From: an uncultured Armatimonadota bacterium
GTDB taxonomy: Bacteria; Armatimonadota; Fimbriimonadia; Fimbriimonadales; Fimbriimonadaceae
Assembly (NCBI GenBank): GCA_903927025.1
Contig: CAIYLG010000012.1
Span: 1 to 64,000 of the forward strand
Length of the DNA stretch: 64,000 nucleotides
Direction of reading: 5' to 3'
The position numbers and the translations under genes were made by a program. Below are positions 19,054 to 59,334 of this stretch, piece by piece. The notes under the pieces were generated by a model that saw only the letters and a program-made list of their open reading frames with translations, was not told the DNA's origin and searched no databases. Numbering within the stretch: position 1 is the first letter of the stretch; every line of letters starts with the position of its first letter.

Positions 19054-20235
19054 ATGCACAGCCCGAACCTTTCAACTGCTCCAATTGAAACTTCAGAGGT
19101 TCTCAATGACGTCCACGGGTTCTACGAGTTCTTTGCGGGTAGCGGAATGGTGCGAATCGGCTTAGGATCTGGGTGGAACTGTCTGCTCGCCAATGATTTC
19201 AGCAAAGCGAAATGCGCCAGCTACTCTGCTAACTTTGGCGGTGAAGACCTTGTTGAGGGAGACATTGCGATGATTGCGACCGATTCCATTCCTCGTGGGG
19301 CGAGATTGGCTTGGGCCTCATTTCCGTGTCAGGACTTAAGCCTCGCGGGTTCTCGAAATGGCCTGAGTGCCAAACGAAGTGGAACATTTTGGGCTTTCTG
19401 GCAACATATGCAGAAGCTAGAGGCATTGGGAAGTAAAGTGCCGATAATTGCTCTGGAGAACGTAGTCGGCTTGCTATCGTCTGGCGGAGGCGAAGACTTT
19501 AGGAGTCTGATCGAGACACTTTCATGTTCGTACCGCGTTGGGGCAGTAGTGATGGACGCAGTTCACTGGCTTCCTCAAAGCCGGCCCCGTTTGTTCATAG
19601 TAGCCGTCGCGAAAGAGATTGAAGTCCCGGAGCAACTAACGTGTGTCGCACCACGATCCCCGTGGCATCCCATGACGATCCAGAGAGCTTTTGATGGATT
19701 GAGTTCCGATCTCCGAGATGCATGGATTTGGTGGGATATTCCGTGTCCAACGCCACGTGAAACTACATTGATCAACGTCATTGAGCACGAGCCAAAGGGA
19801 GTCAAGTGGAACTCACCTGAAGCAACTCAGCGACTCCTTTCGATGATGTCACCTGCCAACATTGCAAAAGTAAACCAAGCGCGCAAGCGCGGTGTAGAGA
19901 TTGTTGGCACGATCTATAGGCGAACACGACCGACAGAATCTGGAGAACGCCAGCAACGAGCGGAAGTACGGTTCGACGGCGTGTCAGGATGTCTACGGAC
20001 TCCGAGCGGTGGTAGTAGTCGTCAGACGATCTTGGTTGTTAACGGCGATGATGTGCGCTCCCGATTGTTATCCCCCCGTGAGGCGGCCAGGTTGATGGGA
20101 TTGCCGGACACCTACAAACTTCCCGAAAACTACAATGACGCCTACCATTTGGCTGGCGATGGAGTAGCCGTCCCCGCCGTTGAATGGCTTCAGCGTCATC
20201 TGCTGACGCCATTGGTTGAGGCCATGAAGCCGTGA
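19054..20235 (+). CDS. DNA (cytosine-5) methyltransferase of R-M unit 1
   Basis: 393 residues. Methyltransferase motifs are in order: I (FYEFFAGSGM, about 23-32), IV with the catalytic cysteine (FPCQDLSLAG, C92), VI (ALENVVGL), VIII (QSRPRLFIV) and the C-terminal motif IX-X region (LSPREAARLMGLPDTYKLP then LAGDGVAVPAVEWL). The target-recognition region is about 235-330. It transfers a methyl group from S-adenosylmethionine to C5 of cytosine in an unknown site. The next gene starts inside its stop codon (GTGA) and encodes a nuclease-like protein, so this is the modification half of a type II-like R-M pair. Confidence 0.9.
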   Translation: MHSPNLSTAPIETSEVLNDVHGFYEFFAGSGMVRIGLGSGWNCLLANDFSKAKCASYSANFGGEDLVEGDIAMIATDSIPRGARLAWASFPCQDLSLAGSRNGLSAKRSGTFWAFWQHMQKLEALGSKVPIIALENVVGLLSSGGGEDFRSLIETLSCSYRVGAVVMDAVHWLPQSRPRLFIVAVAKEIEVPEQLTCVAPRSPWHPMTIQRAFDGLSSDLRDAWIWWDIPCPTPRETTLINVIEHEPKGVKWNSPEATQRLLSMMSPANIAKVNQARKRGVEIVGTIYRRTRPTESGERQQRAEVRFDGVSGCLRTPSGGSSRQTILVVNGDDVRSRLLSPREAARLMGLPDTYKLPENYNDAYHLAGDGVAVPAVEWLQRHLLTPLVEAMKP

Positions 20236-21101
20236 GGCACCCAGTTGTCCCGTGTGAAATCCTTCCTGAGACTAAAGCGCGAATAGATCAATTTGCTGAG
20301 TCATTGAGAGAAGCCGCGCCTCGCATCGGTGAGCACGGACTGTCAAACGCTGAATTCTGGGAATCAGGTCTGTTCGGTGCTGCGGTTGAGCGATTACGGG
20401 GTCAGCAGGCGGCCTCCACCGCAATTAAGTACGGCTTCGTAAGGTCGATTTTGAGTCAACTTAAGATCGCAGGTGAAATCGCTGAGTTTGATTACACCGG
20501 CACTGGCGAGCGCCACGATTTTGAAGTTATATATCCCGACGGCTTCAAGGTCGCCATCGAAACGAAGGGTTGTCTTGACGGCAACAACACTAACATCTTT
20601 CTCAGACCCGCATCCGCTGACGAATTTGTGATTTGGTCGCTTTGCCAAAATCCTGGTGCCGATCCAAGGCACAATGTCTGGTCAGGAATCCACACTCGAC
20701 TCGGCGCGGAAGTCATTCATAGGAAGGAGCGTGTTGACACACTGGTGGTTTGGGACATGATCTGCGGCACTGTTGGCCGCCCTTGTCCCAAACTTGTTGC
20801 AGAACCGAACCGCGCGGTGGTCCTGTCCGACGGCAAGACGGTTCCTCCGCCTTGCCTATATCTGTTCCCTCGCACAGTCCCAGACGCCAGAAACAACCCG
20901 CATCCGAGATGCTGGTCGATGAATGAACTTCGCTTTGCTTCCAGTCTCTCTCGTGTCTTTGGCACTAATGCAACCGAGGCAGTCAGCGTAAGCATCGAGG
21001 TTAGGATGTCCGGCCCTGACGTCGAAAGGATGACTACGTTTTCGGTCAATGGGTCCATAATCGCTCAATCAGGTTGGACAAAGCTGAGTCGGGCTAGATA
21101 A
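20232..21101 (+). CDS. putative restriction endonuclease of R-M unit 1
   Basis: 289 residues from a GTG overlapping the methyltransferase stop. A PD-(D/E)XK-like core is visible: D96 followed by a strand and then E110-T-K112 (VAIETKG), preceded by helices (AIKYGFVRSILSQLKIAGEI) as in many small REases. It has no membrane segments. The overlap with a cytosine methyltransferase gene makes it the likely cognate nuclease, cutting unmodified DNA at the same site. I do not recognise a named family, and assignment of the catalytic residues is inferred. Confidence 0.7.
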   Translation: MRHPVVPCEILPETKARIDQFAESLREAAPRIGEHGLSNAEFWESGLFGAAVERLRGQQAASTAIKYGFVRSILSQLKIAGEIAEFDYTGTGERHDFEVIYPDGFKVAIETKGCLDGNNTNIFLRPASADEFVIWSLCQNPGADPRHNVWSGIHTRLGAEVIHRKERVDTLVVWDMICGTVGRPCPKLVAEPNRAVVLSDGKTVPPPCLYLFPRTVPDARNNPHPRCWSMNELRFASSLSRVFGTNATEAVSVSIEVRMSGPDVERMTTFSVNGSIIAQSGWTKLSRAR

Positions 21102-21159
21102 CTGCAAGACACTTACCATTCTGCTAGGCTCCGAGGTACGCTCTCGCCCGGACTGCAAG

Positions 21160-22191
21160 ATGAAAATAACAGCGATTGATCTATTTTGCGGGGCTGGTGG
21201 CTTGACACATGGCCTTCAGCAAGTTGGCATAGACGTCAAAGCTGGAATTGACGTTGATGCGTGTTGCCAATTTCCTTATGAGTCGAATAATGCCTCAGAA
21301 TTTATCTTGCGCGATGTGCAAGCCCTAACAAGCAACGACTTGCAGGCAATGTTTAACTCATCCGATATTCGGTTGCTTGCGGGCTGTGCGCCTTGTCAAC
21401 CGTTTAGCACCTACTCTCAAGGAAGGAGAGCCAAGAAAGACGATGATCGCTGGAAGCTACTCAACAGATTTGTCGAACTAGTCGACGAATGCAGGCCAGA
21501 ATTAGTGACTATGGAGAATGTGATGGGTCTCCAAAGACACACTATTTTCTCCGAATTTGTTAAGCGGTTACAAGGATTTGGTTATCATGTTAATTGCAAC
21601 ATCTTGTTTGGACCTAAATATGGTTTACCTCAAACTAGAAAGCGATTAGTTGTACTAGCTTCTCGCCTTGGCTGGCCAGAATTACACAAGCCGGACTCCG
21701 AACCGGTCACGGTTCGAGACGCAATCGGCTTGATAGATAGTCTTGAAGCTGGCGAGTGTCACTCAACGGATATTCTCCATAGGGCTTCGGGAATGTCCGA
21801 CATCCAAAAATCTCGGTTACTTGCGTCAACCCCTGGTGGGTCATGGCGAGATTGGCCTGAACACTTAAAGGCCGCATGCCATGCTTCTATGGATCGCACG
21901 TCGTATATCAGTGTTTACGGTCGAATGGAATGGGATCAGCCGTCACCTACGATTACAACACAATTTTACGGCATTGGTCATGGAAGATTTGGGCACCCAG
22001 ATCAACTGCGCGCGATCACTCCACGAGAAGCGGCAATTCTTCAGGGCTTCCCCGCACACTATTCGTTTTTCAAAGAACCAGAGGATTTCGCATTCAATCG
22101 GGCGGGACGAATGATTGGAAACGCAGTCCCGGTTCCGCTTGGAGCACTCATAGGGGAATCATTTACTACCCATGTCAACACGCGAGCTTGA
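21160..22191 (+). CDS. DNA (cytosine-5) methyltransferase of R-M unit 2
   Basis: 343 residues. Motif I is IDLFCGAGGLTHGL (6-19), motif IV GCAPCQPFS with C79, motif VI TMENVMGL, motif VIII LPQTRKRLVVLA, and motifs IX-X RAITPREAAILQGFP then IGNAVPVPLGALI. This is a compact Dcm-type enzyme with a short target-recognition region (about 195-275). Its last 20 bases overlap the start of the GHKL ATPase gene, so the two are coupled. It protects host DNA against the adjacent ATPase-nuclease; this is inferred from context. The pair appears AT-richer by eye than the surrounding late genes, which would suit separate acquisition. Confidence 0.92.
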   Translation: MKITAIDLFCGAGGLTHGLQQVGIDVKAGIDVDACCQFPYESNNASEFILRDVQALTSNDLQAMFNSSDIRLLAGCAPCQPFSTYSQGRRAKKDDDRWKLLNRFVELVDECRPELVTMENVMGLQRHTIFSEFVKRLQGFGYHVNCNILFGPKYGLPQTRKRLVVLASRLGWPELHKPDSEPVTVRDAIGLIDSLEAGECHSTDILHRASGMSDIQKSRLLASTPGGSWRDWPEHLKAACHASMDRTSYISVYGRMEWDQPSPTITTQFYGIGHGRFGHPDQLRAITPREAAILQGFPAHYSFFKEPEDFAFNRAGRMIGNAVPVPLGALIGESFTTHVNTRA

Positions 22192-24127
22192 ACTAGATAT
22201 CCGACTGTCTGTTCTCGATGATCTTGGACTGAGGCTTTATAGCAGCACACCTGCTGTCCTTTCTGAAATCGTTGCGAACGCTTGGGACGCCGATGCGGAT
22301 CTTGTGGAGATCACACTCAACCCAGACGATCAGACAATTGTCATTACGGATAACGGCGAGGGGATGACATTTGAGGAAGCTCAGTCGAGATTCCTAACCG
22401 TCGGTTATCGAAGACGTGACCTCCGCCCTGTACGAACTGATAAATATGATCGCCCGGTCATGGGCAGAAAGGGCATTGGAAAACTAGCACCTCTAGCAAT
22501 TGCTGACAACGTTATTGTTGAAACTAGAAAGGACGGCCAATTTGTTAGCTTTGAACTTGATGTGAATCGTATCCGACAGGATATTAAGGATAATGTCAGA
22601 CACAAGCCACGGATAATTGGTGAAGGGATAACAAGCTCTCCCAATGGAACAACGCTTCGTATCAGCAAGCCCAGACGCCAGTTGCAGTGGGCAGAAGCAG
22701 CGCTCAAAAAGAGACTTGCGAGAAGATTTGCAATCATCGGCCCGTCATATAGTTTTCAGGTTCTGGTAAACGATATTCCTGTGAGCCCCGACGACGTTGA
22801 CTATTACGGCAGGGTCCAGTTTGCTTGGAATTACAATCTCGCTGAATCCGATTCTACACACCAAAAGCTATCGAAACCTCCAAGATGGGAGACTAGATTG
22901 CACGAGTATTTGGATGATTCTACGGGGACAAGCTATCGGTTTACAGGTTGGATTGGCACGGTCGAAAAGACAACAGACCTGGAAGATAACCGCCAGAAAT
23001 TCGGAGGAATAGCTGTTTTCTCCAGGGGAAAGCTCTCTCACGAAGACGCAACGACGCTAGTAGGAGACGATCACCTCTTCACTAAGTACCTTGTTGGTGA
23101 AGTTCAAGCTGACTTTCTAGACGAGGATGGTGCGGAAGATATCGCGACCTCGAACAGGCAAGGACTACTCGAAGATGATCCGCGCGTCGATGTCCTTCGG
23201 AAGTTTCTTGTGCAAGAGCTAAAGTACATCGGAAGTAAGTGGACCGAGTATCGACAAAAACTGGGTGAAGAGAAGGTTGAGGAAAATCCAGGTGTCAAGC
23301 AGTACCTAAACAGCCTACAGCCGGATCCAAGAAAACTGGCAAAACGATTACTAGGAAAAATTTGGGCGGCGAAGGACGACGTCTCAGATAGGGCAGAGCT
23401 AATTCGAGCCGGAATTTTGCTTTGTGAGAATCTAAGAGTGACCGAATCGCTTCACCGAATTGAACAAATGGATGTTGCAGACGTGGAGTCACTGCGCTCA
23501 GCATTTGAGCTTGTCGATGTCCTTCAGGCGACTCAATACAGACAATTAATCGAGGCACGTCACAATGTGATCGAGGTCTTTAAGAAGATCACAAATGACA
23601 ACGAAAAGGAGAAAGTTCTACAGGAGCACATTGCCAAGCACTTGTGGCTACTGAACCCTGGTTGGGATGTCGTCCCAACGAGAGGTGCCCTTGAAGTAGA
23701 GGTTAACCTTAAGGATTTGGCATTGAAATTGAAGGGGACGGGCTCGACAGAAGAGAAGTTAAGGCGCCTGGATATTTTCTATAGTGCTACCAGCACGACG
23801 CACGTGATAATCGAGTTGAAGCGCTATGCGGCCCGGCCGTCGATAGGAGAACTGATTGATCAAGTGAAACTTTACCGTCAGGAAACTCAGAAGATTCTTG
23901 ATAGCTCGGGACGCGGCTCAGAATCTATTGAGATATACATTCTCCTTGGACAACATACCGAAGGAACACCTGCTCAGCGACTTGAAGGCGAGCAGATGCT
24001 TGGCGTGCTGAAAGGACGAATTGTCCTCTATGATGAACTCATCAACCGTGCCCAAAAGCTACACGAGGGATATTTGAACATCACGAGCGATTCGATTCGA
24101 CTGACGACAATCCTAGCAAGTGTCTGA
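22172..24127 (+). CDS. MORC-like GHKL ATPase fused to PD-(D/E)XK nuclease domain
   Basis: 651 residues. The N-terminus is a GHKL ATPase of HATPase_c_3 type: N-box E32-I-V-A-N36-A-W-D39, G1 box D59-N-G-E-G-M, G2 box G97-R-K-G-I-G-K103. A transducer-like region follows to about 330, then a helical region. The C-terminal third (about 480-620) has HLWLLNPGWDVVP, then L533-D534 and I547-E548-L-K550-R, the D...E-x-K arrangement of a Shedu/DUF4263-like nuclease. Prokaryotic MORC-type ATPases linked to REase-fold domains in R-M loci were described by Iyer, Abhiman and Aravind. It is probably an ATP-dependent restriction enzyme working with the overlapping methyltransferase. Confidence 0.82.
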   Translation: MSTRELELDIRLSVLDDLGLRLYSSTPAVLSEIVANAWDADADLVEITLNPDDQTIVITDNGEGMTFEEAQSRFLTVGYRRRDLRPVRTDKYDRPVMGRKGIGKLAPLAIADNVIVETRKDGQFVSFELDVNRIRQDIKDNVRHKPRIIGEGITSSPNGTTLRISKPRRQLQWAEAALKKRLARRFAIIGPSYSFQVLVNDIPVSPDDVDYYGRVQFAWNYNLAESDSTHQKLSKPPRWETRLHEYLDDSTGTSYRFTGWIGTVEKTTDLEDNRQKFGGIAVFSRGKLSHEDATTLVGDDHLFTKYLVGEVQADFLDEDGAEDIATSNRQGLLEDDPRVDVLRKFLVQELKYIGSKWTEYRQKLGEEKVEENPGVKQYLNSLQPDPRKLAKRLLGKIWAAKDDVSDRAELIRAGILLCENLRVTESLHRIEQMDVADVESLRSAFELVDVLQATQYRQLIEARHNVIEVFKKITNDNEKEKVLQEHIAKHLWLLNPGWDVVPTRGALEVEVNLKDLALKLKGTGSTEEKLRRLDIFYSATSTTHVIIELKRYAARPSIGELIDQVKLYRQETQKILDSSGRGSESIEIYILLGQHTEGTPAQRLEGEQMLGVLKGRIVLYDELINRAQKLHEGYLNITSDSIRLTTILASV

Positions 24128-42632: not shown

Positions 42633-42876
42633 TGATTTCTGTGTCTCCTTTCTGTGCAGCCAAATCGGCCGCAAATCGTTTGCTAAGCAACTCGTCCAAG
42701 AGCCTGTTCTCCCCCACCAGCTTCAGGATTTCCGATTGTGCTTGGTCTGACGGAAGACTCAGCGATTGGCGGTAGATGGACTCCTTGTTGCGTGACTTGA
42801 GGCGGGAGAGATGGCATTTGATTTCCTGCCATTCCAGGGTGATTCGGAGCCATAGCTCCCATGCTTCTTGGGTCAT
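42625..42876 (-). CDS. small helical protein overlapping the portal gene's 3' end
   Basis: 83 residues from an ATG at 42876 with a strong AAGGA site 6 bases before it. Its first 194 bases lie inside the end of the portal gene in a different frame. The protein looks genuine: MTQEAWELWLRITLEWQEIK then helices SEILKLVGENRLLDELLSKR and FAADLAAQ. The portal's overlapping tail is proline- and glycine-rich and poorly constrained. It may be a head-assembly or scaffold partner; the scaffold-like gene starts eight bases before its stop codon ends. Confidence 0.65.
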   Translation of the reverse strand: MTQEAWELWLRITLEWQEIKCHLSRLKSRNKESIYRQSLSLPSDQAQSEILKLVGENRLLDELLSKRFAADLAAQKGDTEIND

Positions 42877-44566
42877 TGGGCATTCCTTGCGGGGTGGGTG
42901 CCGGTCGTTCACGCTGAATCTTGTCGGCGCCGGGAATACCGGCACAAGCGAGACTGAGCTTTGCGATTTCGTAAAGATCGAACTGAGAGGCAGGGTTTTG
43001 ACCCATCGCCCAAAGCTGTTGCAGAGTCGCTAGGCGGGCCATCGGAGCATCAGCAGGTGTCTTCCCGTTTGGTTCCCAGGACACTGCTCGCTTAAGATCG
43101 TCTTGCGACACCTTTTGCTCGGGATAGAGCAATCGCCAGACAATGTATTGGTCTGCAAGGACTTCGCAAGTGAATGCGGCCATCTGTCCGAAGGACAGCG
43201 TGAACATTGCGATGTACTCTTGAAGCCCGACACTCATGCCCTGCTGAATCGCTTGGGTTTGTGTTGCCGTTAGGCTCGATTTCGCTTCTTCGGCACCGAG
43301 TGAGTTAGTCGAAACTCGGGCCACCATGTCTCCGTTTCGCTCGCAAGCGGCGATCTGTTGGAGCAATGGCTGAGCGTTAAATTGTGTTGTTGCTTGGAAC
43401 GGCTGGCCACCACCGCCTTCTGTTTCAAGGTAGCTGTACGGCTTGTATTGGCTGTACTTTTCGTTGTCTAGCCGTGGTCCGAAGATCGGCGGGGCCGAAG
43501 CCATGTAGCTTCCGTTGTAGACAAGTGCGTTGAGCTTGTCATACAAGTCTTGGAGTGGGGACAGATTACGTCCAACGCTTTTTCCGCTCCAAAAGTATTC
43601 GTCTGTTAGCAGTTCGCTCGTGAAATACGGTGGCCGCGAATATGGCCAAGCCTGCAAGTCGAGCAGATAATTCTGATACGGAGCCAAGACAGCCCGGTAG
43701 TAGCGTTCAAGGCCTCTTTCATCCGGCAACTTGACGTACAGTTCGAACAGTTCGACAAGTTCTGTTTCAGGGAATCCGCTAAAAACGCTGGGCGACGTCA
43801 ATGCTGAAACGATTGACATCATGTCGTCGTGGGCTTCTGGCGAATCACCACCCACTAGTTCGTAGTCTCGGTTGTCGAAGTATTCGCCAAGCCTCTGGCG
43901 TTCCTTGATGTAGGCAAGTCGAGCGTAAAATCGGTGGCCGACAAGCATTGCCGACTGAATTCCGTCTACTGCCGAAGGCGCAATTACGAAGTCGTTCGGG
44001 TGGATCGAGTCGATCTTGATTCCGGCAAACCTTACTGGGCCGTGTTGAATGTCTTCGATTTGATCGGAGCCTTCAGGAAGAATCCCACCGGGTTGAAACT
44101 CGAATGCGAGTCGCCAGACACCTTTGTTGTGAAGGGCCGCGTTAAGCGCGACACCTCGGCAAGCCCTGTCAAATCCGCCTGACTCCCACTGTCGGTGAAC
44201 GATGGCTTCTAGCCTTGTCGAAAGTTCATCGCCAAGCCCGCTGACAGCGAGCATGAGTGGGTGTTGACGCGCTACGACACTGCAAATCTGTCCGACAAGT
44301 GTGTCGATTCGCGGTTGAAGGAACGGAATGTGTAGCGGAGACATGCCCTCGTCTGGGGCCGTGTCATAAGCTGGAGGATCGTTGCGCTGATAGCTCTCGG
44401 TTCGGAGCCAAATCTCTGGAAGTGAGCCTTTCGCGGTGATCGCTTGTTGGACAAGCGTCGAAAGCTGGAGAGCGACTTTATTTCGGTCGGACTGAGTCCT
44501 AGCGATCTTTGGAATCTGGCGGACTATAACGACTTCTTCAATGTCGTTGTTAGTCTCGTTGGTCAT
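42683..44566 (-). CDS. portal protein
   Basis: 627 residues. The N-terminal helical domain has HIPFLQPRIDTLVGQICSVV, LMLAVSGLGDELSTRLEAIV and GVALNAALHNKGVWRLAFEF. Later come DFVIAPSAVDGIQSAMLVGH, GRNLSPLQDLYDKLNAL and a long helix region (EEAKSSLTATQTQAIQQGMS). These match P22-type portals of podoviruses in size and order. A low-complexity proline tail (about 560-627) overlaps another gene. It forms the dodecameric DNA channel at one capsid vertex. Confidence 0.78.
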   Translation of the reverse strand: MTNETNNDIEEVVIVRQIPKIARTQSDRNKVALQLSTLVQQAITAKGSLPEIWLRTESYQRNDPPAYDTAPDEGMSPLHIPFLQPRIDTLVGQICSVVARQHPLMLAVSGLGDELSTRLEAIVHRQWESGGFDRACRGVALNAALHNKGVWRLAFEFQPGGILPEGSDQIEDIQHGPVRFAGIKIDSIHPNDFVIAPSAVDGIQSAMLVGHRFYARLAYIKERQRLGEYFDNRDYELVGGDSPEAHDDMMSIVSALTSPSVFSGFPETELVELFELYVKLPDERGLERYYRAVLAPYQNYLLDLQAWPYSRPPYFTSELLTDEYFWSGKSVGRNLSPLQDLYDKLNALVYNGSYMASAPPIFGPRLDNEKYSQYKPYSYLETEGGGGQPFQATTQFNAQPLLQQIAACERNGDMVARVSTNSLGAEEAKSSLTATQTQAIQQGMSVGLQEYIAMFTLSFGQMAAFTCEVLADQYIVWRLLYPEQKVSQDDLKRAVSWEPNGKTPADAPMARLATLQQLWAMGQNPASQFDLYEIAKLSLACAGIPGADKIQRERPAPTPQGMPNDPRSMGAMAPNHPGMAGNQMPSLPPQVTQQGVHLPPIAESSVRPSTIGNPEAGGGEQALGRVA

Positions 44567-45247
44567 TTAGGCCGCTAGCGCCACCTCGTCTGGGACTATG
44601 ATCGCCTCGATTGCATCATCGGAACAGACACCAAGATCGGGATCGCCCTCGATCATGTCTATCTGCAGCATGGCGTTCGGGTTGTATAGGACTCGCGTGC
44701 CAACTGAGAACTCAGAGTCAGGTCCGGCGCTCACGATGGTGCCGATGTTCGTGCGATAGACACTGTTGTCGGACAGGTGGATAAGTCCTTCCTGCTTGAC
44801 AGTCGGGTCGCGCTTCACAAGTAGATTTCGCTTGAGTGGTGTCATGTTGAGTTCGTTGTCTAAGAGGGCTAAAACCGAGTCGCTCCAGTCGTAGAGTTCG
44901 CATTCACCGGGAGCCGCGCCATAAACGCCGTAGCATCGGACTTCGCCCTTGGCCTTGTAAGTGCCAGCTTCAAAGTCCGTTCGCCAAGTGCCATCGTAAG
45001 CGCGCACGACAACAGCGTCACCTGGCCGCAAGCCAGTGTCTGAGCCTGCCGAAAGCACGATTCCAACATCAGGTCGCTCGTTTCCGGCGACTTTGTCTGG
45101 CAAGTGAATCAATCCGCGCTTCTTTTCGAAGGGAGCCATCTCGATGACAACACGGCCACGTGGACACCTAATGTGCCTTGATCCGTTTTGCCAGTCGATC
45201 TCGGGAAGTCCCTTAAGGTGAATTTGGAGAACGTTCTCGCCTTGCAT
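44567..45247 (-). CDS. tandem GroES-like (double Cpn10) co-chaperonin
   Basis: 226 residues with two successive Cpn10 folds. Domain 1 (about 30-130): GRVVIEMAP, mobile-loop-like G45-L-I-H-L-P-D51, VGIVLSAGSDTGLRPGDAVVV and the closing WSDSVLALLD. Domain 2 (about 137-222): KRNLLVKRD, G154-L-I-H-L-S-D160, IGTIVSAGPDSEFSVGTRVLY and the closing SDDAIEAIIVPDE. GLIHL corresponds to the GGIVL contact with GroEL. T4 gp31 is a single-domain phage Cpn10; a double one resembles chloroplast Cpn20 in layout. It likely directs host GroEL to fold the capsid protein. It lies between the terminase-side genes and the portal gene. Confidence 0.82.
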   Translation of the reverse strand: MQGENVLQIHLKGLPEIDWQNGSRHIRCPRGRVVIEMAPFEKKRGLIHLPDKVAGNERPDVGIVLSAGSDTGLRPGDAVVVRAYDGTWRTDFEAGTYKAKGEVRCYGVYGAAPGECELYDWSDSVLALLDNELNMTPLKRNLLVKRDPTVKQEGLIHLSDNSVYRTNIGTIVSAGPDSEFSVGTRVLYNPNAMLQIDMIEGDPDLGVCSDDAIEAIIVPDEVALAA

Positions 45248-45555
45248 TAATTCTTGTGCTTGGTGTGTCGGCGCCGTTTGTGAGCCTTGACAGTTACTGT
45301 CTTCTTGGAGACAGTTCGTTTGTGCGACTTGACATGGGTGTGCTCACCGAGTTCCTTGTCTGCCTTTCGATCCACCTTTTCTTCGGCGGCCTTGGACATC
45401 TTCCCGGCGTGTTCCTCTTTGCTTGCGTAACTCTTGGCTACTCGCGCATGTGTTTTGTCGTTGATCGGATAGGAGCCGTGTCCGGGTGCTTTCTCCGGGA
45501 ACACGAAGTCACTCTTCGGCAGAGACTCTCTCTGCTTTGAAGTGAGCTTCGACAT
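45247..45555 (-). CDS. SAFxxP/HAR-motif phage protein with basic tail
   Basis: 102 residues. MSKLTSKQRESLPKSDFVFP and SYPINDKTHARVAKSYASK are the signature of a small phage family (KLTxxxRxxLPxSxFxxP ... YPIxDxxHARxAL), which I recall as DUF6582 without certainty. The C-terminus is very basic (KSHKRTVSKKTVTVKAHKRR). The stop overlaps the GroES-like gene's start. The function is unknown; the basic tail suggests nucleic-acid contact. Confidence 0.62.
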   Translation of the reverse strand: MSKLTSKQRESLPKSDFVFPEKAPGHGSYPINDKTHARVAKSYASKEEHAGKMSKAAEEKVDRKADKELGEHTHVKSHKRTVSKKTVTVKAHKRRRHTKHKN

Positions 45556-45786
45556 TTACTTGCTCACCTTTTTGTGTCGCTTGTGGGCTGTTTTCTTCTT
45601 TGCCGACTTCTTGGCTGTCTTCTTTTTGGCTTTGCCTTTGTGGAGCTTCGCCATTTCCTTCATTAAAGATGGAGCATCCATTTCTTCGGAGCCCTTCTTC
45701 TTCATCGAATGCTTGCGCTTTCGCTTGGGCATGTCCATGCCGCCGTGTCCCAATTCCATTCCTAAGTCGCTACTAGTGATTGCCAT
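45556..45786 (-). CDS. very lysine-rich small phage protein
   Basis: 76 residues from the ATG at 45786 (CAGGAGAGAAGAAA before it). The N-terminus has Gly and Met (GMELGHGGMDMPKRKRKHS). The C-terminal half is almost all K, A, H and T (LHKGKAKKKTAKKSAKKKTA), like a histone H1 tail. It probably binds DNA or RNA or is packaged with the genome; this is inferred from charge alone. Confidence 0.58.
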   Translation of the reverse strand: MAITSSDLGMELGHGGMDMPKRKRKHSMKKKGSEEMDAPSLMKEMAKLHKGKAKKKTAKKSAKKKTAHKRHKKVSK

Positions 45787-46030
45787 TTTCTTCTCTCCTG
45801 TCCATCGAAACGATTGTCTCAATCCTGGTAAGCGACTTAGAGATGTCGTGATACTGTGTTTCGAGACTCAATAGCCGTGCTTCAACACTCGTTATTCGCT
45901 TGTCCGTACTAAACTTGTTGGCCTGGTATCGCACGGCGAATGTGGCAAGGCCAATCATGAAAGCTCCAATGCTCACCAGCAGCGGCCATAGCTTTATCAC
46001 TGCGTCAAGGGTCGTTTCGTCTGGGTGCAT
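45773..46030 (-). CDS. membrane-anchored coiled-coil phage protein (holin- or spanin-like)
   Basis: 85 residues: one membrane segment (about 12-33, IKLWPLLVSIGAFMIGLATFAV) and then a heptad-rich helix (ITSVEARLLSLETQYHDISKSLTRIETIV). Phages often encode such proteins as class III holins or DUF2730-like components near the terminase or lysis genes. No endolysin was found next to it. It overlaps the TerL nuclease half by 26 bases. Confidence 0.6.
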   Translation of the reverse strand: MHPDETTLDAVIKLWPLLVSIGAFMIGLATFAVRYQANKFSTDKRITSVEARLLSLETQYHDISKSLTRIETIVSMDRREENGNH

Positions 46031-46922
46031 TGCTAGTTAATTTCCGAACTGAGTTGCCTGTTCCCTTGATGATTTTCTGCGCTTCCATAACTGCGTACTG
46101 AAGTGCGTCGGAACAGTGCGAATACTTGTCTTTGATGGGCAAGAGTAAGTCTTTACTTGTGGCCTCTTTACCGACAGGTGGCCGTAGTCGATATCCACCT
46201 CGCATGGCCGCAAGTAGAGTCGGACAGTTTTTGCCGTTGATAAACATCCTTGGCGATTCAGCGTCGATCCAATCTGTCAAAGCCCATGTCACCGCACCTA
46301 ATCGGGCGTGTAGGTTGTTCGTCATCGGCTTGATGTCAACGCCGAACTTGCGCGCCTCCGACCAAGCTGATGTTCCGTTTGCACCAGATCGCTGGGTGAC
46401 TGTCTGATCACCGCACCACAAGATGTCATCCCAGAATCCGGGAAACATCTTTGTCAAGATCGCCAGCACACGCGGACAAAATTGCGACATGGGTTCCGCG
46501 CCGTCGTGCGTGATCTCCAAAATGGCCGCAAGCTGATAGAACGGCGGTGGGCCGACTTCTAAGAGCACAGCAGCCGGATAAAGTGTCTGACCGCAGTCAA
46601 TGCCGAGAATGTAGCGGCTTCCTTTCTGTAGCTCCCAATCGTTCTGTTGGAGATACAGCGGACAGTGAATCGCGTCCGAGTAGTCGGCGAAAACAGGTTC
46701 GCCGTCGAACACAGATACGTCAAGCTCAAGTTCACGTCTCCATTCCCTGGATGGAATTCCAACCTTCGCTTTCTCTGCCCATTGCGGAGTCTTGTCCGGG
46801 TCGGCAGAGTAGTGGATGCGGAGTACGCGACAGCCGCTCCTCGATGTGTAGAGTTCACAACCGAAAGGAACGGGCGGAGGAATCGTCTGAGTTAGTCCTG
46901 CGCGTTGGAAGCTGGAGGAGTG
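46005..46922 (-). CDS. large terminase, nuclease half (no usable start in frame)
   Basis: The open frame runs from just after a TAG at 46923-46925. Conserved terminase sequence begins near FQRAGLTQTIPPPVPFGCEL and continues through RVLRIHYSADPDKTPQWAEK and WRRELELDVSVFDGEPVFA. The RNase-H-like nuclease residues follow in YILGIDCGQT, ILWCGDQT and HCSDALQY. The only in-frame start codon is a GTG at 46712, which would drop ~70 conserved residues. Joined to the ATPase half at 47047, it would give a normal-length TerL without the ~125 bases between. Expression could need frameshifting from the small overlapping gene, or the terminase may be inactive. Confidence 0.75.
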   Translation of the reverse strand, partial: HSSSFQRAGLTQTIPPPVPFGCELYTSRSGCRVLRIHYSADPDKTPQWAEKAKVGIPSREWRRELELDVSVFDGEPVFADYSDAIHCPLYLQQNDWELQKGSRYILGIDCGQTLYPAAVLLEVGPPPFYQLAAILEITHDGAEPMSQFCPRVLAILTKMFPGFWDDILWCGDQTVTQRSGANGTSAWSEARKFGVDIKPMTNNLHARLGAVTWALTDWIDAESPRMFINGKNCPTLLAAMRGGYRLRPPVGKEATSKDLLLPIKDKYSHCSDALQYAVMEAQKIIKGTGNSVRKLTSNAPRRNDP

Positions 46923-47050
46923 CTAGTAGACACGCCAAGAATCGCCTGGGCATCTTTGAGCAAAGCTACAACTTTCGTGAGATGGAACGTGTTGGCGATC
47001 AAGATGGCCGCCGTTAGGATCGTGATGATGTCTGTGTGATTTAGGTTCAT
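46892..47050 (-). CDS. 52-residue membrane peptide inside the terminase locus
   Basis: Its ATG overlaps the ATPase-half stop (GCATGA). It encodes MNLNHTDIITILTAAILIAN, then TFHLTKVVALLKDAQAILGV and a polar tail ending SNAQD. One clear membrane segment (about 8-24) is present, so it could be a holin-like or superinfection-type peptide. Its last ~30 bases overlap the nuclease-half frame at -1. The ribosome site is weak, and coupling to the upstream gene is likely. Confidence 0.55.
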   Translation of the reverse strand: MNLNHTDIITILTAAILIANTFHLTKVVALLKDAQAILGVSTSTPPASNAQD

Positions 47051-47772
47051 GCTGCAATTAGTTCCAAAAATTCTTCGTTAGGCGATGCGTTCGCAATCAT
47101 CGTCGGGTGGCCGCCAACTGAAGTCGGCGATCCCTGACAAACTGTTACGGCTTGGCCCCAAGTGTTTGCGAGGCGATCATAAGCGGATCCCTCTTCGCAA
47201 CAAACGCCTGTGACGCCAGTACCTCTGAACGACTCACCGCGCTGATTGATCGAAGTGATTCGCGAGCCGTTTGGCAAGATCAAGCTGTCTAGTCGCTGAT
47301 CGTTCATCGGGCCGTAGAACAGGGAGTCGTCGAGTCTCCAATCTGGATTACGCTTCTGAATCTGATCGTACATGTACCAAGAACGCCATACATGTGCTTG
47401 TGCGTCGGAGAATGTCTGGCCGGCGATGAGTTGATTCGCCTGAGACAGTCCAGCGTCTTGAAGCTCAAGCGCGCGACAGAGCCACGAGATGATAAGCCGT
47501 CGCGATTTGAGACAGATGAACGGCTGGCCTTGGGCCTTAGAGTCGGTCCAGTGCCACACGAAGAACTCGATATAGTCCTTTCGGGGAAGCTGTTGTGTCT
47601 GCCGATCTGCCTCGTTCCACGTCCAAATCTTGTCGTAGATGAAAGCCAGGCGGGATTCGTAGGAGCCGTCGTTGTAGGGAGCGGGCCATAGACATCTGCC
47701 TTCGCCCATTATTTCCTTGGCCGCATAGAACGCATGTTCCATCGCTTGAAATGGATCGTTCTTTGATGCCAT
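47047..47772 (-). CDS. large terminase, ATPase half
   Basis: 241 residues from MASKNDPFQAMEHAFYAAKE at 47772, whose ATG overlaps the small-terminase stop (TGATG). The ATPase motifs are an adenine/Walker A-like FICLKSRRLIISWLCRALEL, then FYGPMNDQRLDSLILPNGSRI and GVTGVCCEEGSAYDRL as Walker B with the catalytic EE. The coupling motif region is TMIANASPNEEFLELI. It stops directly after LIAA, where other terminases continue into the linker and nuclease. The motor domain is thus present, but separated from the nuclease frame. Confidence 0.78.
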   Translation of the reverse strand: MASKNDPFQAMEHAFYAAKEIMGEGRCLWPAPYNDGSYESRLAFIYDKIWTWNEADRQTQQLPRKDYIEFFVWHWTDSKAQGQPFICLKSRRLIISWLCRALELQDAGLSQANQLIAGQTFSDAQAHVWRSWYMYDQIQKRNPDWRLDDSLFYGPMNDQRLDSLILPNGSRITSINQRGESFRGTGVTGVCCEEGSAYDRLANTWGQAVTVCQGSPTSVGGHPTMIANASPNEEFLELIAA

Positions 47773-48122
47773 CAAACGTCCTTGATTGCCTTCCGGCAAT
47801 CGGAAATCCATTCGTGAAGATGCTCTTCAGACAGATACTTAGCTGTTACTCTGGCGATTGTGGCAAGCACTTCTTCGTTGCTGAGCGACACTTCGACACG
47901 TTCGCCCAAGCCATATTGGCCGAGCGCTTTGATCGCGTCGATTCTGTCTTTGGATCGGTTGGTGGTGCCATCGGCGATCTGTTCGAGTGTTGAAATCCGT
48001 TTCTCGAACGCCAGCTTGCAGGCTTCTCGAACTGCGGACTTCGGACTGCCAGCACCTGGCCATCCTCCCTTTCTTGGGTTGTTGCCAATGTAGGCGCCTA
48101 AGTTTGCCGAACTGTCTGCCAT
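47772..48122 (-). CDS. putative small terminase subunit
   Basis: 116 residues from the ATG at 48122. The N-terminal NPRKGGWPGAGSPKSAVREA is followed by helices KLAFEKRISTLEQIADGTTN and KDRIDAIKALGQYGL, then EVSLSNEEVLATIARVTAKYL. A GRPxGS-like loop plus a helical oligomerisation region next to TerL is usual for TerS proteins, which recognise the pac or cos site. The call rests mainly on position and layout. Confidence 0.6.
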   Translation of the reverse strand: MADSSANLGAYIGNNPRKGGWPGAGSPKSAVREACKLAFEKRISTLEQIADGTTNRSKDRIDAIKALGQYGLGERVEVSLSNEEVLATIARVTAKYLSEEHLHEWISDCRKAIKDV

Positions 48123-48202
48123 CGAAATCACCGTTTGGCTAGGTAAGTGAAGGAATAGAATTTCACTTACGGCTATGCCAGGTAGTGAAGATATACAAGT
48201 TT

Positions 48203-48700
48203 TTAGGCGTCTTCACCTGCATGATTTGAAGGAAAGTTCAGGTGTGCAAAGTCGCCGTGTAATTCGATAGCCTTGCTATCGTAAGCCCTTGCGGCCTCTT
48301 CGGGCGTCGTGAAGTAGCCAAGGTGATAACGATTTCCGTGGTGTTCGATATGCGATCTGTAACGAATGTCGTTACGACGTGGAGAAAGACTTACGCCCTT
48401 GAAACCGGTCTTGGTATCAAGTCTAACTTTCTGGTTAGCGATGTTCTGGGACTGAGTACATATCCGAAGATTGGACCGCCTGTTGTCAAGAGTGTCGCCG
48501 TTGATGTGATCAACTTGCTCACCGATCTTGGCATCAAGAATAAGACGATGCAGAAAGATAGCTTGCTTACCAGGTTTGGTAACGACATACACATGTACCT
48601 TGGAGCGATGGGCGTGCCATACATATTGGGAGACCAATTCATAGTCTTCATCATCAACAGTAGCTGTATAGCCTTGTGTCAACGGAATCGTGTAGCTCAT
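48203..48700 (-). CDS. HNH endonuclease with AP2 DNA-binding domain
   Basis: 165 residues. The HNH core is IFLHRLILDAKIGEQVDHIN then GDTLDNRRSNLRICTQSQN, with the D-H and N-x-x-x-N-L-R elements. The AP2 domain follows as GFKGVSLSPRRNDIRYRSHI, RYHLGYFTTPEEAARAYDSK and AIELHGDFAHLNFP. This is a free-standing homing-endonuclease type common in phage genomes. Its neighbour is the terminase module, which is also interrupted. It may be responsible for that insertion, or may be an independent parasite. Confidence 0.85.
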   Translation of the reverse strand: MSYTIPLTQGYTATVDDEDYELVSQYVWHAHRSKVHVYVVTKPGKQAIFLHRLILDAKIGEQVDHINGDTLDNRRSNLRICTQSQNIANQKVRLDTKTGFKGVSLSPRRNDIRYRSHIEHHGNRYHLGYFTTPEEAARAYDSKAIELHGDFAHLNFPSNHAGEDA

Positions 48701-48877
48701 CCATAGCTAATCTTATGGAGCGATCTTGAAACACTGCAGCCCCGAAACTTTTCAGACTTTGCTTCTACCGAAAATGTCGATACTATGTTTTCCGCTGACG
48801 CTATGGACCGGGGGTGGGGGGTGGGCCACAGGTATTGCTTCAACGGCAAAGTTTCAATAGGGAGTGAACTACCACCC

Positions 48878-49369
48878 CTAAGCGACCCGAACGCCTGCTC
48901 CAACGCAATCGCCGGAGTCCATCAGACGGAGCGCATGGATGGTTGAACGGCACCAGTTGGACTTGATCCGTCCGGCGATCCGTTCCAGGGTGCGTCGTTC
49001 CCCTTCGGTGATCAGATCGCCGTATCCGAGTTCAACGAAGTCGGATATGTGAAGTCGATAACTTGGTTCGACGTCCAGGGCAGTGTCGTGAAGCTGTCCA
49101 TGGCGACGCGCATACAAGGTGTAGAGGATCCCTCTCACCACCGGCGGTTCATGGCGCAAAGATCGTTCGATGTCCAGGAAGCACAATGCCACATCAGGAA
49201 CGCTTCCAAGCCGTTTGAGGACTCTCCGTCGTTCGTCGTCGGCGATCTTGGGATAGTTGATGCCACCCGTCTCTCGATGCCCTACGACACGTCCCCAACC
49301 CCAAAGGAGTCGAGCTAGTTCACGGTAGGCGGACAGGGGAATCGTTGGCTCTGGCTTGCTGGCAGGCAT
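48878..49369 (-). CDS. putative late-gene regulator (antiterminator Q-like)
   Basis: 163 residues. IPLSAYRELARLLWGWGRVV then GGINYPKI resembles the W-G-x-W ... Y-P N-terminus of phage Q-type antiterminators. VVRGILYTLYARRHGQ and the C-terminal ERIAGRIKSNWCRSTIHAL could be a sigma-4-like helix-turn-helix. It is the first gene of the leftward late operon, where such regulators usually sit. The similarity is partial and the call is tentative. Confidence 0.4.
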   Translation of the reverse strand: MPASKPEPTIPLSAYRELARLLWGWGRVVGHRETGGINYPKIADDERRRVLKRLGSVPDVALCFLDIERSLRHEPPVVRGILYTLYARRHGQLHDTALDVEPSYRLHISDFVELGYGDLITEGERRTLERIAGRIKSNWCRSTIHALRLMDSGDCVGAGVRVA

Positions 49370-49457
49370 GCTTTCCTTTTACAGATTTGTGAAGCTCCCA
49401 CCTGCATTTGAACCTGTTGAGCACTAGAGGTTCCCTTAACGCTCACGATCTTGTCTA

Positions 49458-49498
49458 TGAGCACTTGACGTGTTGATTAGTGCTCAAGTACGCTTGAG
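49458..49498. promoter_or_regulatory. operator-like palindromes between late and early operons
   Basis: TGAGCACT (49458-49465) and its complement AGTGCTCA (49479-49486) form one inverted repeat. A second, CTCAAG-TACG-CTTGAG (49483-49498), overlaps it. Further GAGCAC copies lie nearby (about 49428-49435). The cluster lies between the leftward late operon start and the rightward early operon, as expected for a phage control region. The binding protein is unknown. Confidence 0.5.
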
Positions 49499-49543
49499 AG
49501 TGCCTGCCCATGTTACGAGCACGGGACAGGCGAGGAGTAACCC

Positions 49544-49642
49544 ATGTACGACATGACAACTCCATCAGGCAGTTTACTGTCCGGTGGCACTGCGAAATCC
49601 CGGCGAAATTCGGGGCGATCTTGGAAGGTGTGCAGTCAATGA
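49544..49642 (+). CDS. 32-residue early peptide
   Basis: Starts 6 bases after GAGGAG, an excellent ribosome site, with MYDMTTPSGSLLSGGTAKSR and a basic end (RSWKVCSQ). Its TGA overlaps the ATG of the next gene. It is probably the first gene of the early operon; a coding or leader role cannot be told apart. Confidence 0.5.
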   Translation: MYDMTTPSGSLLSGGTAKSRRNSGRSWKVCSQ

Positions 49643-49791
49643 GCATCGACAGATCGGAAGTATCAAGAGCGTTGGCTAAAGCCCTGGCTTTCAAGGCATG
49701 CGGAAAGCAAGCCGAAGCCGAAGAATGGGCACGTGAGCTGGTCCGGCTCCTGGAGTGTGCGGACATTCTCAAGGAGTCGGATACGAAATGA
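49639..49791 (+). CDS. small helical early protein
   Basis: 50 residues (MSIDRSEVSRALAKALAFKA then CGKQAEAEEWARELVRLLEC), fully helical and amphipathic. It starts in the stop of the 32-residue peptide and ends overlapping the next start, so it is part of a coupled early operon. A longer frame opens at 49510, but that stretch overlaps the peptide with the better ribosome site. The function is unknown. Confidence 0.55.
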   Translation: MSIDRSEVSRALAKALAFKACGKQAEAEEWARELVRLLECADILKESDTK

Positions 49792-50117
49792 GCACTGATC
49801 CGCGTATCCGGTTTCGATCAGCCACAAACTGGGATGAAGCGTTCCAGTGTGCAATCGACAACTTTCCTAAAGCCAAGTTCGTCAAGCTCGATCACGACGG
49901 AAGTGCTCACGTCGGAAGAGACAGATGTTCCCTCAAAGGGTTGTCTGTCTTCCCTGATGGCGATGTCGTCTCGATCTATGGCTATCAAGCGTCCTACCAC
50001 TTGCAAGATCGCCTGAGCAATACGTCCTTGTCGCTCATGCTGTCCCTTTCGGACGCAAAGCAACTCGCCTATTCGATCATCGACCAAGTGAAGGCAATGG
50101 AGGCTGAAAATGCCTGA
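49788..50117 (+). CDS. early phage protein of unknown function
   Basis: 109 residues from an ATG overlapping the upstream stop (ATGA). A beta-rich N-part (RIRFRSATNWDEAFQCAIDN, FVKLDHDGSAHVGRD, VVSIYGYQASYHLQ) and a C-terminal helix (LSLSDAKQLAYSIIDQVKAM) are visible. No family is recognised. Confidence 0.58.
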   Translation: MSTDPRIRFRSATNWDEAFQCAIDNFPKAKFVKLDHDGSAHVGRDRCSLKGLSVFPDGDVVSIYGYQASYHLQDRLSNTSLSLMLSLSDAKQLAYSIIDQVKAMEAENA

Positions 50118-50268: not shown

Positions 50269-50624
50269 TGGCTCCCCGCTTCGGCGGGGACCTGCTCCCC
50301 GATGAAATCCTCGCCTCGTTGCCCGATCTGTACGCCACTGAGACAGACGCCGACCCGATGGTGTCCGTGAAATTGTTTACGCCGGACGCCGGATGGACAT
50401 GGTGGGTGCTCGAAGCCAGCCGACGGGACGTCGAGGGGATCGTTGAGACGGACGACGAAGACGACGTGATTCTGCTCCGTCTTGTCCAAGGGCAAGAAAC
50501 GGAGCTTGGCTATGTGTCCCTTCGTGAGTTGGCATCCTACCGCTCAGGGTTTGGGCTTGGCATTGAACGCGACTTGCACTGGAGACCTAAACGTTTGTCC
50601 GAGATTCGAGACTCGCTTGCATGA
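50265..50624 (+). CDS. DUF2958-family protein
   Basis: 119 residues. The pattern LPDLYATE, MVSVKLFTPDAGWTWWVLEA, ILLRLVQGQETELGYVSLRE and GLGIERDLHWRPKRLSEI matches DUF2958 (LPxLYxTE ... KLFxPxxxWTWYxxE ... GxExELGYFSLxEL ... GLxIERDLxFxP). The family is widespread on phages, plasmids and integrative elements, with no known biochemistry. The start is one of two adjacent ATGs. Confidence 0.8.
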   Translation: MMAPRFGGDLLPDEILASLPDLYATETDADPMVSVKLFTPDAGWTWWVLEASRRDVEGIVETDDEDDVILLRLVQGQETELGYVSLRELASYRSGFGLGIERDLHWRPKRLSEIRDSLA

Positions 50625-50668
50625 ACACCGGGGGATGCGGCAGCATCCCCACCATAAGGAAACCTCAG

Positions 50669-51349
50669 ATGAAAAAGAAGCAAATCAAGACGGACGCACC
50701 ACTCCGAGCAGTGATCTATCGGCGCGTCTCGACGGACGACCAAGCCGAAAGCAAGTTGGGTTTGGAAGCCCAGGACGAAGCCACCAAGTCCATGTGCGCG
50801 TACAAGAAGTGGACCATCGTCGGCCAGTTCTGCGACGAAGGCGTCAGCGGACGCAAAGAATCACGACCTGACTTCGACAAGGCATTGTCGATGCTCGCCA
50901 ACAAAGAAGCCGACGTTCTGGTAGTGAAGTCCCTCGATAGGATCAGTCGATCAGCGATCCACTTCCTGAAAGTCATGCAAACAGCGGACGCCGAAGGATG
51001 GGACGTCGCGATTCGTGATCTCGACCTCGATACGCACAGTGAGGCTGGCCGCATGGTGCTGACGATTCTCGCGGCCGTCGCAGAATGGGAGGTGGAAGTG
51101 ATCCGCCGGCGAACACGGGACGGACTCAAAGCCAAGATCGCCAGAGGGGAGAGAGTCGGACGCGAACGTGTGGTGGGTGACGACGTCGTAGAACGGATCG
51201 TGAAACTGAAAGACGCCGGGACGACATTCAGAAGCATAGCTTCGGCATTGGACCTCGATGGCGTTGCCACCCCCAACGGTGGCAGGGCTTGGCAATACTC
51301 CACCGTGAGGAAAATCTACGACAACGCCAAGAAAGCCATGAAAATCTAG
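50669..51349 (+). CDS. serine recombinase (resolvase/invertase type)
   Basis: 226 residues from MKKKQIKTDAPLRAVIYRRV. The catalytic domain has YRRVSTDDQAESKLGLEAQD with the nucleophilic serine, VSGRKESRPDFDKAL, VLVVKSLDRISRSAIHFL and the long helix MVLTILAAVAEWEVEVIRRR. A C-terminal helix-turn-helix (IVKLKDAGTTFRSIASALDL then WQYSTVRKIY) completes a small resolvase. The phage already has a tyrosine integrase, so this enzyme may resolve dimers, invert DNA or act on an origin. An upstream in-frame start at 50621 lacks a good site; GGAAACCTCAG precedes 50669. Confidence 0.88.
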   Translation: MKKKQIKTDAPLRAVIYRRVSTDDQAESKLGLEAQDEATKSMCAYKKWTIVGQFCDEGVSGRKESRPDFDKALSMLANKEADVLVVKSLDRISRSAIHFLKVMQTADAEGWDVAIRDLDLDTHSEAGRMVLTILAAVAEWEVEVIRRRTRDGLKAKIARGERVGRERVVGDDVVERIVKLKDAGTTFRSIASALDLDGVATPNGGRAWQYSTVRKIYDNAKKAMKI

Positions 51350-57448: not shown

Positions 57449-57790
57449 GTGTCCAGCATCACGAGCCAGAGAGACTACGCTAGCGCCACTGCAAAGAACA
57501 AGTTGGGTTTGACCACCACAACTTTGGGAAAGGGGATGGAGCTGTTTTCATCCCCAATCCCTTTCAGAGTCGATATGGAAATTCCGCAGTCATCAAAGTC
57601 GCAAACGATGGAAGTAGCTCCCCTGTTACTTCCCGTCCGGGTGGTGGCGAAAATGTTGGGAAGATCGAAGTCGCGGATTTACGAACTTTGCCTATACGGT
57701 GAGCTTCGCTCGATCAAGGACGGTGCCTCGATTTTGATCCCCGCCGACGAACCAGCGAAATGGCTTGCCCGGAAGCTGAAGCAACGCTAG
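57449..57790 (+). CDS. excisionase-like HTH protein
   Basis: 113 residues, but the true start may be at 57536, 57575 or 57608. The conserved part is LLLPVRVVAKMLGRSKSRIY, ELCLYGELRSIKDGASILIP and ADEPAKWLARKLKQR, an HTH_17 / Xis-type domain. It converges on the integrase gene; the two stop codons overlap at CTAG (57787-57790). An Xis role fits its place beside the integrase. A 7-bp hairpin (GGGGATG / CATCCCC) lies inside its 5' part. Confidence 0.62.
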   Translation: MSSITSQRDYASATAKNKLGLTTTTLGKGMELFSSPIPFRVDMEIPQSSKSQTMEVAPLLLPVRVVAKMLGRSKSRIYELCLYGELRSIKDGASILIPADEPAKWLARKLKQR

Positions 57791-59148
57791 AGCTTCCAGC
57801 CCCCTGACAGTCTTCTCTGCGCGTCCTTGAACGCTTGCGTAGTTATGTCGGTGTAGCTCTTGAACGTGACTGTGTCGCCCGTGTGACCCATCAAGCCCAT
57901 GCGTGTTGGTTCCGGTATGCCGACTTCAGCGGCGTAGCTGGCAAATGAGTTCCGCGTGTCTCGGAAGACGATCTTGTCCCAAACATTGGGAAGATGTATC
58001 TTGCGTTGCTTTGCGAGCGTGATAACAGAATTCAAGTCTTTGTTATCTGTCTTTTCGCCTTTCGCCACCAACGTCATTCGTGAACAGAGTGTTGTCCAAG
58101 CAATGCGAAAGTTAGCAGCCTGTTTCAGCTTTCCGTCAGCAGTTCCAAAAACCAAACCGTCGCCATTTTCCTTGAGTCGCTTCATGATCGGTAGGAGTTG
58201 GTCGGGCACTGCCACCCATCTGTATCTGGGTTCGGCTTGTGTTCCGCGTTTCGGATACGACAACGCCTGAGGCACCACGTCGCCGTAGGGAACGCCATCC
58301 TCATCGACGTGACGCGCATGTCGCCGGAGGGCACGGTCAACAAGAACGGCTTTCTTTTCCAGGTCGATTCGTTTCCCTCGCAAAGCCATGACTTCACCGT
58401 GTCTCATCCCTGTGAGCATCCCAATGGTGAACATGTCGGCGATCCATCGGACTAACAGTCCTCGCTCGACTAAACAGTCCAAGACAAACATGACGTTGGC
58501 GAAGTCTTGGCTTTCCATCGTCGTCCGTGCGCGCATTGAAGGAGCAATAGATTGGAGATTCTCAAATGGATTGAGCATCTCAAAGAACTCCATATCAATT
58601 GCGGTTTTGAAGTATCCACCCAGGTCGATTCGACACTCTTTGAGTTGCGACAAGCCTTTTTCGCCTTGGAGTTTGGCTTCCATCTCCGTAACCCATTCCT
58701 GAGCGTGTCTGCGTCTAACTGTCTGAAGCGGCCACTCACCCCAATACGGCTCGATGTGGTTCTTCCATCGTCCTTCTTTCGCTGAAGCCCGGACACGGCT
58801 GAGATTCTTCCAGGTGTGCGCCCTACAGTATTCGTACAGATCGCCCACTGTGTGAATTCCGTCGTTCGTTGACGACTTGACCAAAACTTGACCAATTCCG
58901 CCTTCTTTGCGGTTTTCGGGGCGCGTCGATTCTGCGTATTTGACAGCGTCTTCAGGCTTGGCGAATGACTTCACGGGAAATCGGACAGGACGACCGCGTT
59001 CCGTTCGCCTGACTTTCACCACCCATCTCCCATTTGGCGTCTCTTTTGTGCGGTACTGGGTTGCCGACGAGAAATACACGCTCTCGCCAGTGTGGAGGCG
59101 TCTGTTTAGCTTGTCAGAAAGCTCGGGTTTCTTTCCCAAATCGCTCAT
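57787..59148 (-). CDS. tyrosine-type phage integrase
   Basis: 453 residues. An N-terminal arm-binding part (about 20-90) and a core-binding SAM-like domain (about 100-200, TVGDLYEYCRAHTWKNL ... HAQEWVTEMEAKL) precede the catalytic domain. The catalytic residues are R249 in GMLTGMRHGEVMAL, R399 in FRDTRNSFAS, H422 in LMGHTGDTVT and Y432 in FKSYTD. The box II histidine is replaced (R-D-T-R instead of H-x-L-R), which still occurs in some integrases. The gene reads away from the tRNA-Thr site, where it inserts the phage. A leaderless or weakly signalled start lies ~110 bases from the attachment site. Confidence 0.93.
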   Translation of the reverse strand: MSDLGKKPELSDKLNRRLHTGESVYFSSATQYRTKETPNGRWVVKVRRTERGRPVRFPVKSFAKPEDAVKYAESTRPENRKEGGIGQVLVKSSTNDGIHTVGDLYEYCRAHTWKNLSRVRASAKEGRWKNHIEPYWGEWPLQTVRRRHAQEWVTEMEAKLQGEKGLSQLKECRIDLGGYFKTAIDMEFFEMLNPFENLQSIAPSMRARTTMESQDFANVMFVLDCLVERGLLVRWIADMFTIGMLTGMRHGEVMALRGKRIDLEKKAVLVDRALRRHARHVDEDGVPYGDVVPQALSYPKRGTQAEPRYRWVAVPDQLLPIMKRLKENGDGLVFGTADGKLKQAANFRIAWTTLCSRMTLVAKGEKTDNKDLNSVITLAKQRKIHLPNVWDKIVFRDTRNSFASYAAEVGIPEPTRMGLMGHTGDTVTFKSYTDITTQAFKDAQRRLSGGWKL

Positions 59149-59258
59149 GAAGTGATATATATCACATCGCGTCTGGTCAAGTTTTGGTCAAGTTTCGTGT
59201 TTTGGAGCGCAAATCCGATGCAGTAACTTCGAGATTTTTGCTGATTTGAACCTAAAAA

Positions 59259-59307
59259 CTGGAGCCCTCGACGAGAATCGAACCCGTGACCTCTTCTTTA
59301 CCAAAGA
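59259..59307 (-). repeat. right attachment repeat (within tRNA-Thr)
   Basis: 49 bases identical to 18775-18823, covering the 3' half of the tRNA-Thr gene. Recombination with the left copy would release a ~40.5-kb circle and leave an intact tRNA gene. Confidence 0.9.
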
Positions 59308-59334
59308 AGTGCTCTGCCGCTGAGCTACGAGGGC
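59260..59334 (-). tRNA. tRNA-Thr(GGT)
   Basis: Acceptor stem GCCCTCG / CGAGGGC, D-arm GCTCAGCGGCAGAGC, anticodon stem CTTCT / AGAAG around the loop TTGGTAA (anticodon GGT, reads ACC and ACU), T-arm ACGGGTTCGATTCTCGT and an encoded CCA end. It is intact and is the integration site of the prophage. Confidence 0.95.

Follow-up and report, generated by a model that had tools for sequence, protein, structure and literature searches.

The large terminases (TerL) of T4 (gp17), D6E and P74-26 are single polypeptides that contain an ASCE ATPase core, a lid subdomain, a linker and an RNase H-like nuclease. Here we describe the TerL of a prophage in an uncultured Armatimonadota bacterium of the family Fimbriimonadaceae, found in a 64,000-nucleotide stretch (assembly GCA_903927025.1, contig CAIYLG010000012.1, positions 1 to 64,000, forward strand) to which we refer as the window. 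This TerL resembles the three enzymes in each of these parts, in their folds and in the active-site residues, but it has its ASCE core and its lid on different chains. From the sequence comparisons and structure models presented below, we consider it very likely that two genes here encode the two subunits of a functional enzyme.

One-piece relatives of this protein are known. The closest that we found, loci L024 and L041 from IMG/VR, have both halves in one frame, as does the best match among annotated phages, the one-piece gp03 of Burkholderia phage BcepC6B, and wherever we examined the record of an annotated phage with a similar TerL, the gene was in one piece. A short predicted structure of 298 amino acids from the cultured Streptomyces phage JXY1 might be a lone half. 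The coding region of the herpesvirus terminase pUL15 consists of two exons that mRNA splicing joins to give one protein, and its nuclease fold matches our model of the second gene described here, terL-B. In the Jug phages terL is found in two to three pieces, split by group I introns that are spliced out (PMC12363816). There RNA splicing restores one coding region, whereas the window has no intron match and the pieces of its relatives may lie kilobases apart or in reversed order. The split NrdA of Aeromonas phage Aeh1 is reportedly encoded by two genes, with a homing endonuclease at the split, and is active as an assembly of the two products; the present case is likewise a phage enzyme in two genes, but no endonuclease was found in the terL gaps examined. 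Halves of this kind are already catalogued in PHROGs, where split halves match four half-length 'terminase large subunit' families (5653, 10250, 6672 and 7579) that are listed as TerL only, and we found no description of these families as partners in a two-gene enzyme. Nor did we find a two-gene terL split without an intron described in the open-licence literature, which is weak evidence, the one report of a split terL being that on the Jug phages.

Organization of the split gene

In the window TerL is encoded by two minus-strand genes, terL-A and terL-B, lying in two frames with a 52-codon hydrophobic open reading frame (ORF) between them:

47047-47772, minus strand: terL-A, ATPase half (ASCE core), 241 amino acids
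46892-47050, minus strand: 52-codon ORF with one hydrophobic stretch
46005-46883, minus strand: terL-B, lid, linker and nuclease, 292 amino acids from a proposed ATT start
46701-46883, minus strand: residues 1-61 of terL-B, taken as the last part of the ATPase domain with its lid from their position between matched ranges

The terL-A gene begins with the ATG at 47772 and stops at TGA 47049-47047, directly past motif III. The ATG of the 52-codon ORF (47050-47048) overlaps this stop as ATGA, its own stop is TAA 46894-46892, and a family search of this ORF in Pfam and PHROGs gave no match. The terL-B frame is open from 46922, right past TAG 46925-46923, to the stop at 46005, which leaves 124 nucleotides (nt) between the terL-A stop and the open frame. 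A scan of this frame for ATG, GTG or TTG before the conserved part found none, the first being GTG at 46712. The conserved part aligns with the start codons of relatives near an ATT at 46883, 8 nt past the stop of the 52-codon ORF. The ATGA overlap together with the 8-nt spacing suggests that terL-B may be translated from this rare ATT codon by coupling to the 52-codon ORF. A promoter and terminator scan of the junction returned nothing.

This reading of the ORFs bears out a preliminary description of the stretch, which had given the same stop for the ATPase frame, a nuclease frame past the TAG with no start codon, about 125 bases between the halves, and a hydrophobic 52-residue peptide whose ATG overlaps the ATPase stop. 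Its term "nuclease half" holds in that the second frame resumes TerL, and needs refining in that the resumed part consists of the remainder of the ATPase domain (the lid) as well as the nuclease.

An 85-codon ORF (45773-46030, minus strand) has its start within the last part of the nuclease gene; it shows a hydrophobic N-terminal stretch, a possible coiled coil and only weak PHROGs matches.

Folds, active sites and the place of the cut

The AlphaFold models of the two halves are confident, with mean pLDDT (predicted local distance difference test) values of 90 and 88. The terL-A model matches T4 gp17 109-300 (Z 18.1) and P74-26 TerL up to residue 192. The terL-B model matches nuclease domains from about residue 61 on, namely T4 361-562, D6E 234-417 and P74-26 from 257, with scores of Z 19.2 for D6E, Z 16.8 for P22 and Z 11.7 for herpesvirus pUL15 (4iox). 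By position, the first 61 residues of terL-B stand for approximately T4 301-360, D6E 187-233 and P74-26 193-256, all in the ATPase domain. In D6E TerL the lid residues Y213, M216 and R224 and the linker 230-241 lie in or next to the 187-233 stretch (PMC5727402). Because these unmatched 61 residues fall in the lid region of the ATPase domain, the models place the cut inside that domain, after the ASCE core and before the lid, which stays with the nuclease.

The catalytic residues are conserved among the aligned sequences of each half:

47485-47508, minus strand: deviant Walker A motif KSRRLIIS, terL-A residues 89-96; K89, R91 and S/T96 each in 67 of 67 sequences
47191-47193, minus strand: codon of the Walker B catalytic Glu194 of terL-A, 67 of 67
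46596-46598, minus strand: codon of nuclease Asp96 of terL-B, 75 of 75
46407-46409, minus strand: codon of nuclease Asp159 of terL-B, 75 of 75
46107-46109, minus strand: codon of nuclease Asp259 of terL-B, 73 of 75

The P-loop lacks the usual GK[ST], and we take it to resemble the deviant P-loop of lambda gpA. The window therefore has the ASCE ATPase fold with P-loop lysine and catalytic glutamate, and the RNase H-like nuclease with its catalytic acids, that are expected of a tailed-phage TerL. The two activities on one polypeptide, also expected, were found neither in the window nor at the other split loci. Among the usual gene neighbours the portal was found, and the small terminase was placed by position only.

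Recurrence of the split in relatives

The preliminary description had proposed looking for the same layout in related prophages, and it was found there. A genome of the same genus (G017) has two more split copies and one of the same family (G036) has one. The spacer differs in every relative, and the 52-codon ORF is consequently not a defining feature of the split. In one of the G017 copies (C92) the two ORFs are in one frame with a single TGA between them, and a GAGG motif precedes the TTG start of the second gene; in the other (C70) the halves are separated by 0.85 kilobases (kb) that include an antisense ORF, and in G036 the distance is 5.8 kb.

Single-sequence scans of IMG/VR with each window half as query gave no match, and searches with alignments gave more than 100 further contigs. 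The loci were classed by profile searches of all six frames, by which 119 were split and 12 one-piece; the search motif is common to both forms, yet the seeds were mostly split, and this ratio is no frequency among phages at large. At 25 other loci no ATPase half was visible, either because the contig ended or because the ATPase part of annotated phages falls outside the profile. The split loci form 73 clusters at 80% identity, and in 72 of the 73 representatives the ATPase ORF extends to where the ATPase profile ends, with the stop following at a median of 8 residues. Both window halves are 33-43% identical to those of relatives, and this conservation, with the model matches to TerL structures at Z 18-19, places the split beyond chance.

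The gaps between halves range from short overlaps to several kb. Some contain other genes, for example a PCMT-type methyltransferase or a histidine phosphatase, and small hydrophobic ORFs starting exactly at the ATPase stop recur in L027, L144, L161 and L184. At six loci (L058, L059, L061, L063, L103 and L115) the nuclease gene lies upstream of the ATPase gene, and for L059, L061, L103 and L115 the TerL halves were confirmed by PHROGs. The TerL profile phrog_2 is divided across two proteins in L027, L031, L035, L103 and L115. Most relatives start the nuclease gene with ATG, GTG or TTG, and an automatic check found that seven other representatives likewise lack a standard start ahead of the profile match. 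In the one-piece L024 and L041 only 16 and 36 residues separate the two profile matches, which suggests that nothing essential is missing from the split form. At L182 (2399-3976) we observed an ATPase half with an in-frame insertion of about 270 residues that carries a LAGLIDADG domain and is intein-like.

In 21 pairs of split relatives, the nuclease half had a median ratio of nonsynonymous to synonymous substitution rates (dN/dS) of 0.077 and the ATPase half one of 0.081, and no value exceeded 0.19. These values indicate that both halves of split relatives are under purifying selection. When a tree is built from the nuclease part, split loci are intermingled with one-piece loci; well-supported branches force at least six changes of state, the best tree has 13, and the window's own clade (support 100) has four split and two one-piece members. 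The tree points to repeated splitting, repeated fusion, or both.

A proposed two-subunit enzyme and its alternatives

The sequences and models thus show that TerL is divided over two genes, that the cut site and the active sites are conserved, and that purifying selection acts in split relatives. The enzyme that we propose would consist of TerL-A, the ATP-hydrolysing ASCE core, and TerL-B, in which the RNase H-like nuclease is preceded by the last strand or strands of the ATPase domain, the lid (transmission) subdomain and the linker. The two proteins would associate noncovalently to rebuild one active TerL, and the movement of the lid driven by ATP would then cross a protein-protein interface. 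Since the identical split is found in dozens of uncultivated phage lineages, we favour a working two-part motor over a broken gene, and of the options raised in the preliminary description a functional two-part terminase is the one strongly supported by the recurrence, the dN/dS values and the conserved catalytic residues. Several points weigh on the other side. The case is built from sequence and models; the dN/dS values come from relatives, the nearest copies of the window being too diverged; terL-B has no standard start codon, and the nearest AGGA is 12 nt before the ATT; the junction is known from a 66-contig assembly; and the G036 copy, with a non-phage-looking ORF between its halves, may belong to a decaying prophage.

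Perhaps the gene is simply broken, a small insertion or frame change having left a prophage that cannot package DNA. The missing standard start codon of terL-B would fit such a history, as would decay of the G036 copy, but the same cut site recurs across dozens of lineages, dN/dS is low for both halves in split relatives, and the active sites and the prophage ends are intact; we think this improbable. A complete second TerL, which the preliminary description regarded as fatal to its claim, was sought in the window's own genome of 66 contigs and was not found, the one weak match being to a family that also matches 11 of 14 control genomes.

The halves could also be joined during or after expression. 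Recoding might do so if ribosomes shifted by -1 out of the 52-codon ORF or bypassed from GCA to GCA, as the preliminary description suggested, and the overlapping frames, the absence of a standard terL-B start and the repeat of GCA in the nuclease frame at 46901-46899 are compatible with this. No slippery heptamer was seen in the frame overlap, however, the RNA of the insert folds no better than shuffled sequences (z 0.41), and neither device would serve in relatives that have antisense ORFs, kilobases or a reversed gene order between the halves, which makes recoding very unlikely. We find it harder still to credit that RNA or protein splicing (an intron, trans-splicing or a split intein) rebuilds one TerL. 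The in-frame LAGLIDADG insertion of L182 speaks for such a route, but Rfam gave no intron match in window 44000-50000 at E <= 1 nor in nine relatives at the gathering score, its only matches on the window being two tRNAs, and ATPase halves that end a median of 8 residues past their domain leave no room for half an intein. An intein search on the window halves gave no match, and in the gaps of relatives no homing endonuclease was found, either among those gap ORFs that were submitted to Pfam or by a crude motif scan.

The surrounding prophage

The terL locus sits in a 40.5-kb prophage that encodes an integrase and a portal protein and is bordered by 53-nt repeats at a tRNA gene:

47772-48131, minus strand: probable small terminase ORF, by position only and without confident family match; its stop TGA overlaps the terL-A start
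42683-44566, minus strand: portal protein (phrog_332, phrog_1216)
57787-59148, minus strand: phage integrase (phrog_1, E 3.6e-37)
18771-18823, no strand assigned: left 53-nt repeat and prophage border, 98% identical to 59255-59307
59255-59307, no strand assigned: right 53-nt repeat, inside a tRNA gene (59263-59334)

The split itself contains only the 52-codon ORF, and a free-standing HNH-AP2 endonuclease gene is found just upstream of the terminase genes (48203-48700, minus strand), not at the split. Between terL and the portal gene lies a gene for a 226-residue protein with a GroES-like stretch (44567-45247, minus strand), and L002 and L004 have a protein of similar appearance after terL. Besides the integrase at its end, the prophage has a serine recombinase or invertase-like gene (50621-51349, plus strand), and at its left end it carries two DNA cytosine methyltransferases and two type II restriction-enzyme-like proteins (19054-24127, plus strand).

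Implications

Neither window half has a TerL match in Pfam or PHROGs, and the proteins of ten relatives have none in Pfam. Because the halves escape Pfam in this way, these phages can be overlooked by pipelines that rely on TerL as a single-gene marker. It is possible, although we consider it rather unlikely, that in many uncultivated lineages the core and the lid with the nuclease of the packaging motor are separate, exchangeable proteins, so that lid-nuclease subunits could differ from the cores in number or timing, for example by joining or leaving at initiation and at headful cutting. How ATP hydrolysis is passed from the ASCE core to the lid and on to the DNA is a debated step of packaging, for which there are competing models (PMC5727402). 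Here the chain has been cut by evolution at this step, and selection has maintained both pieces across many lineages. Such phages would provide a naturally separable system for following binding, ATPase activity, translocation and cutting one piece at a time.
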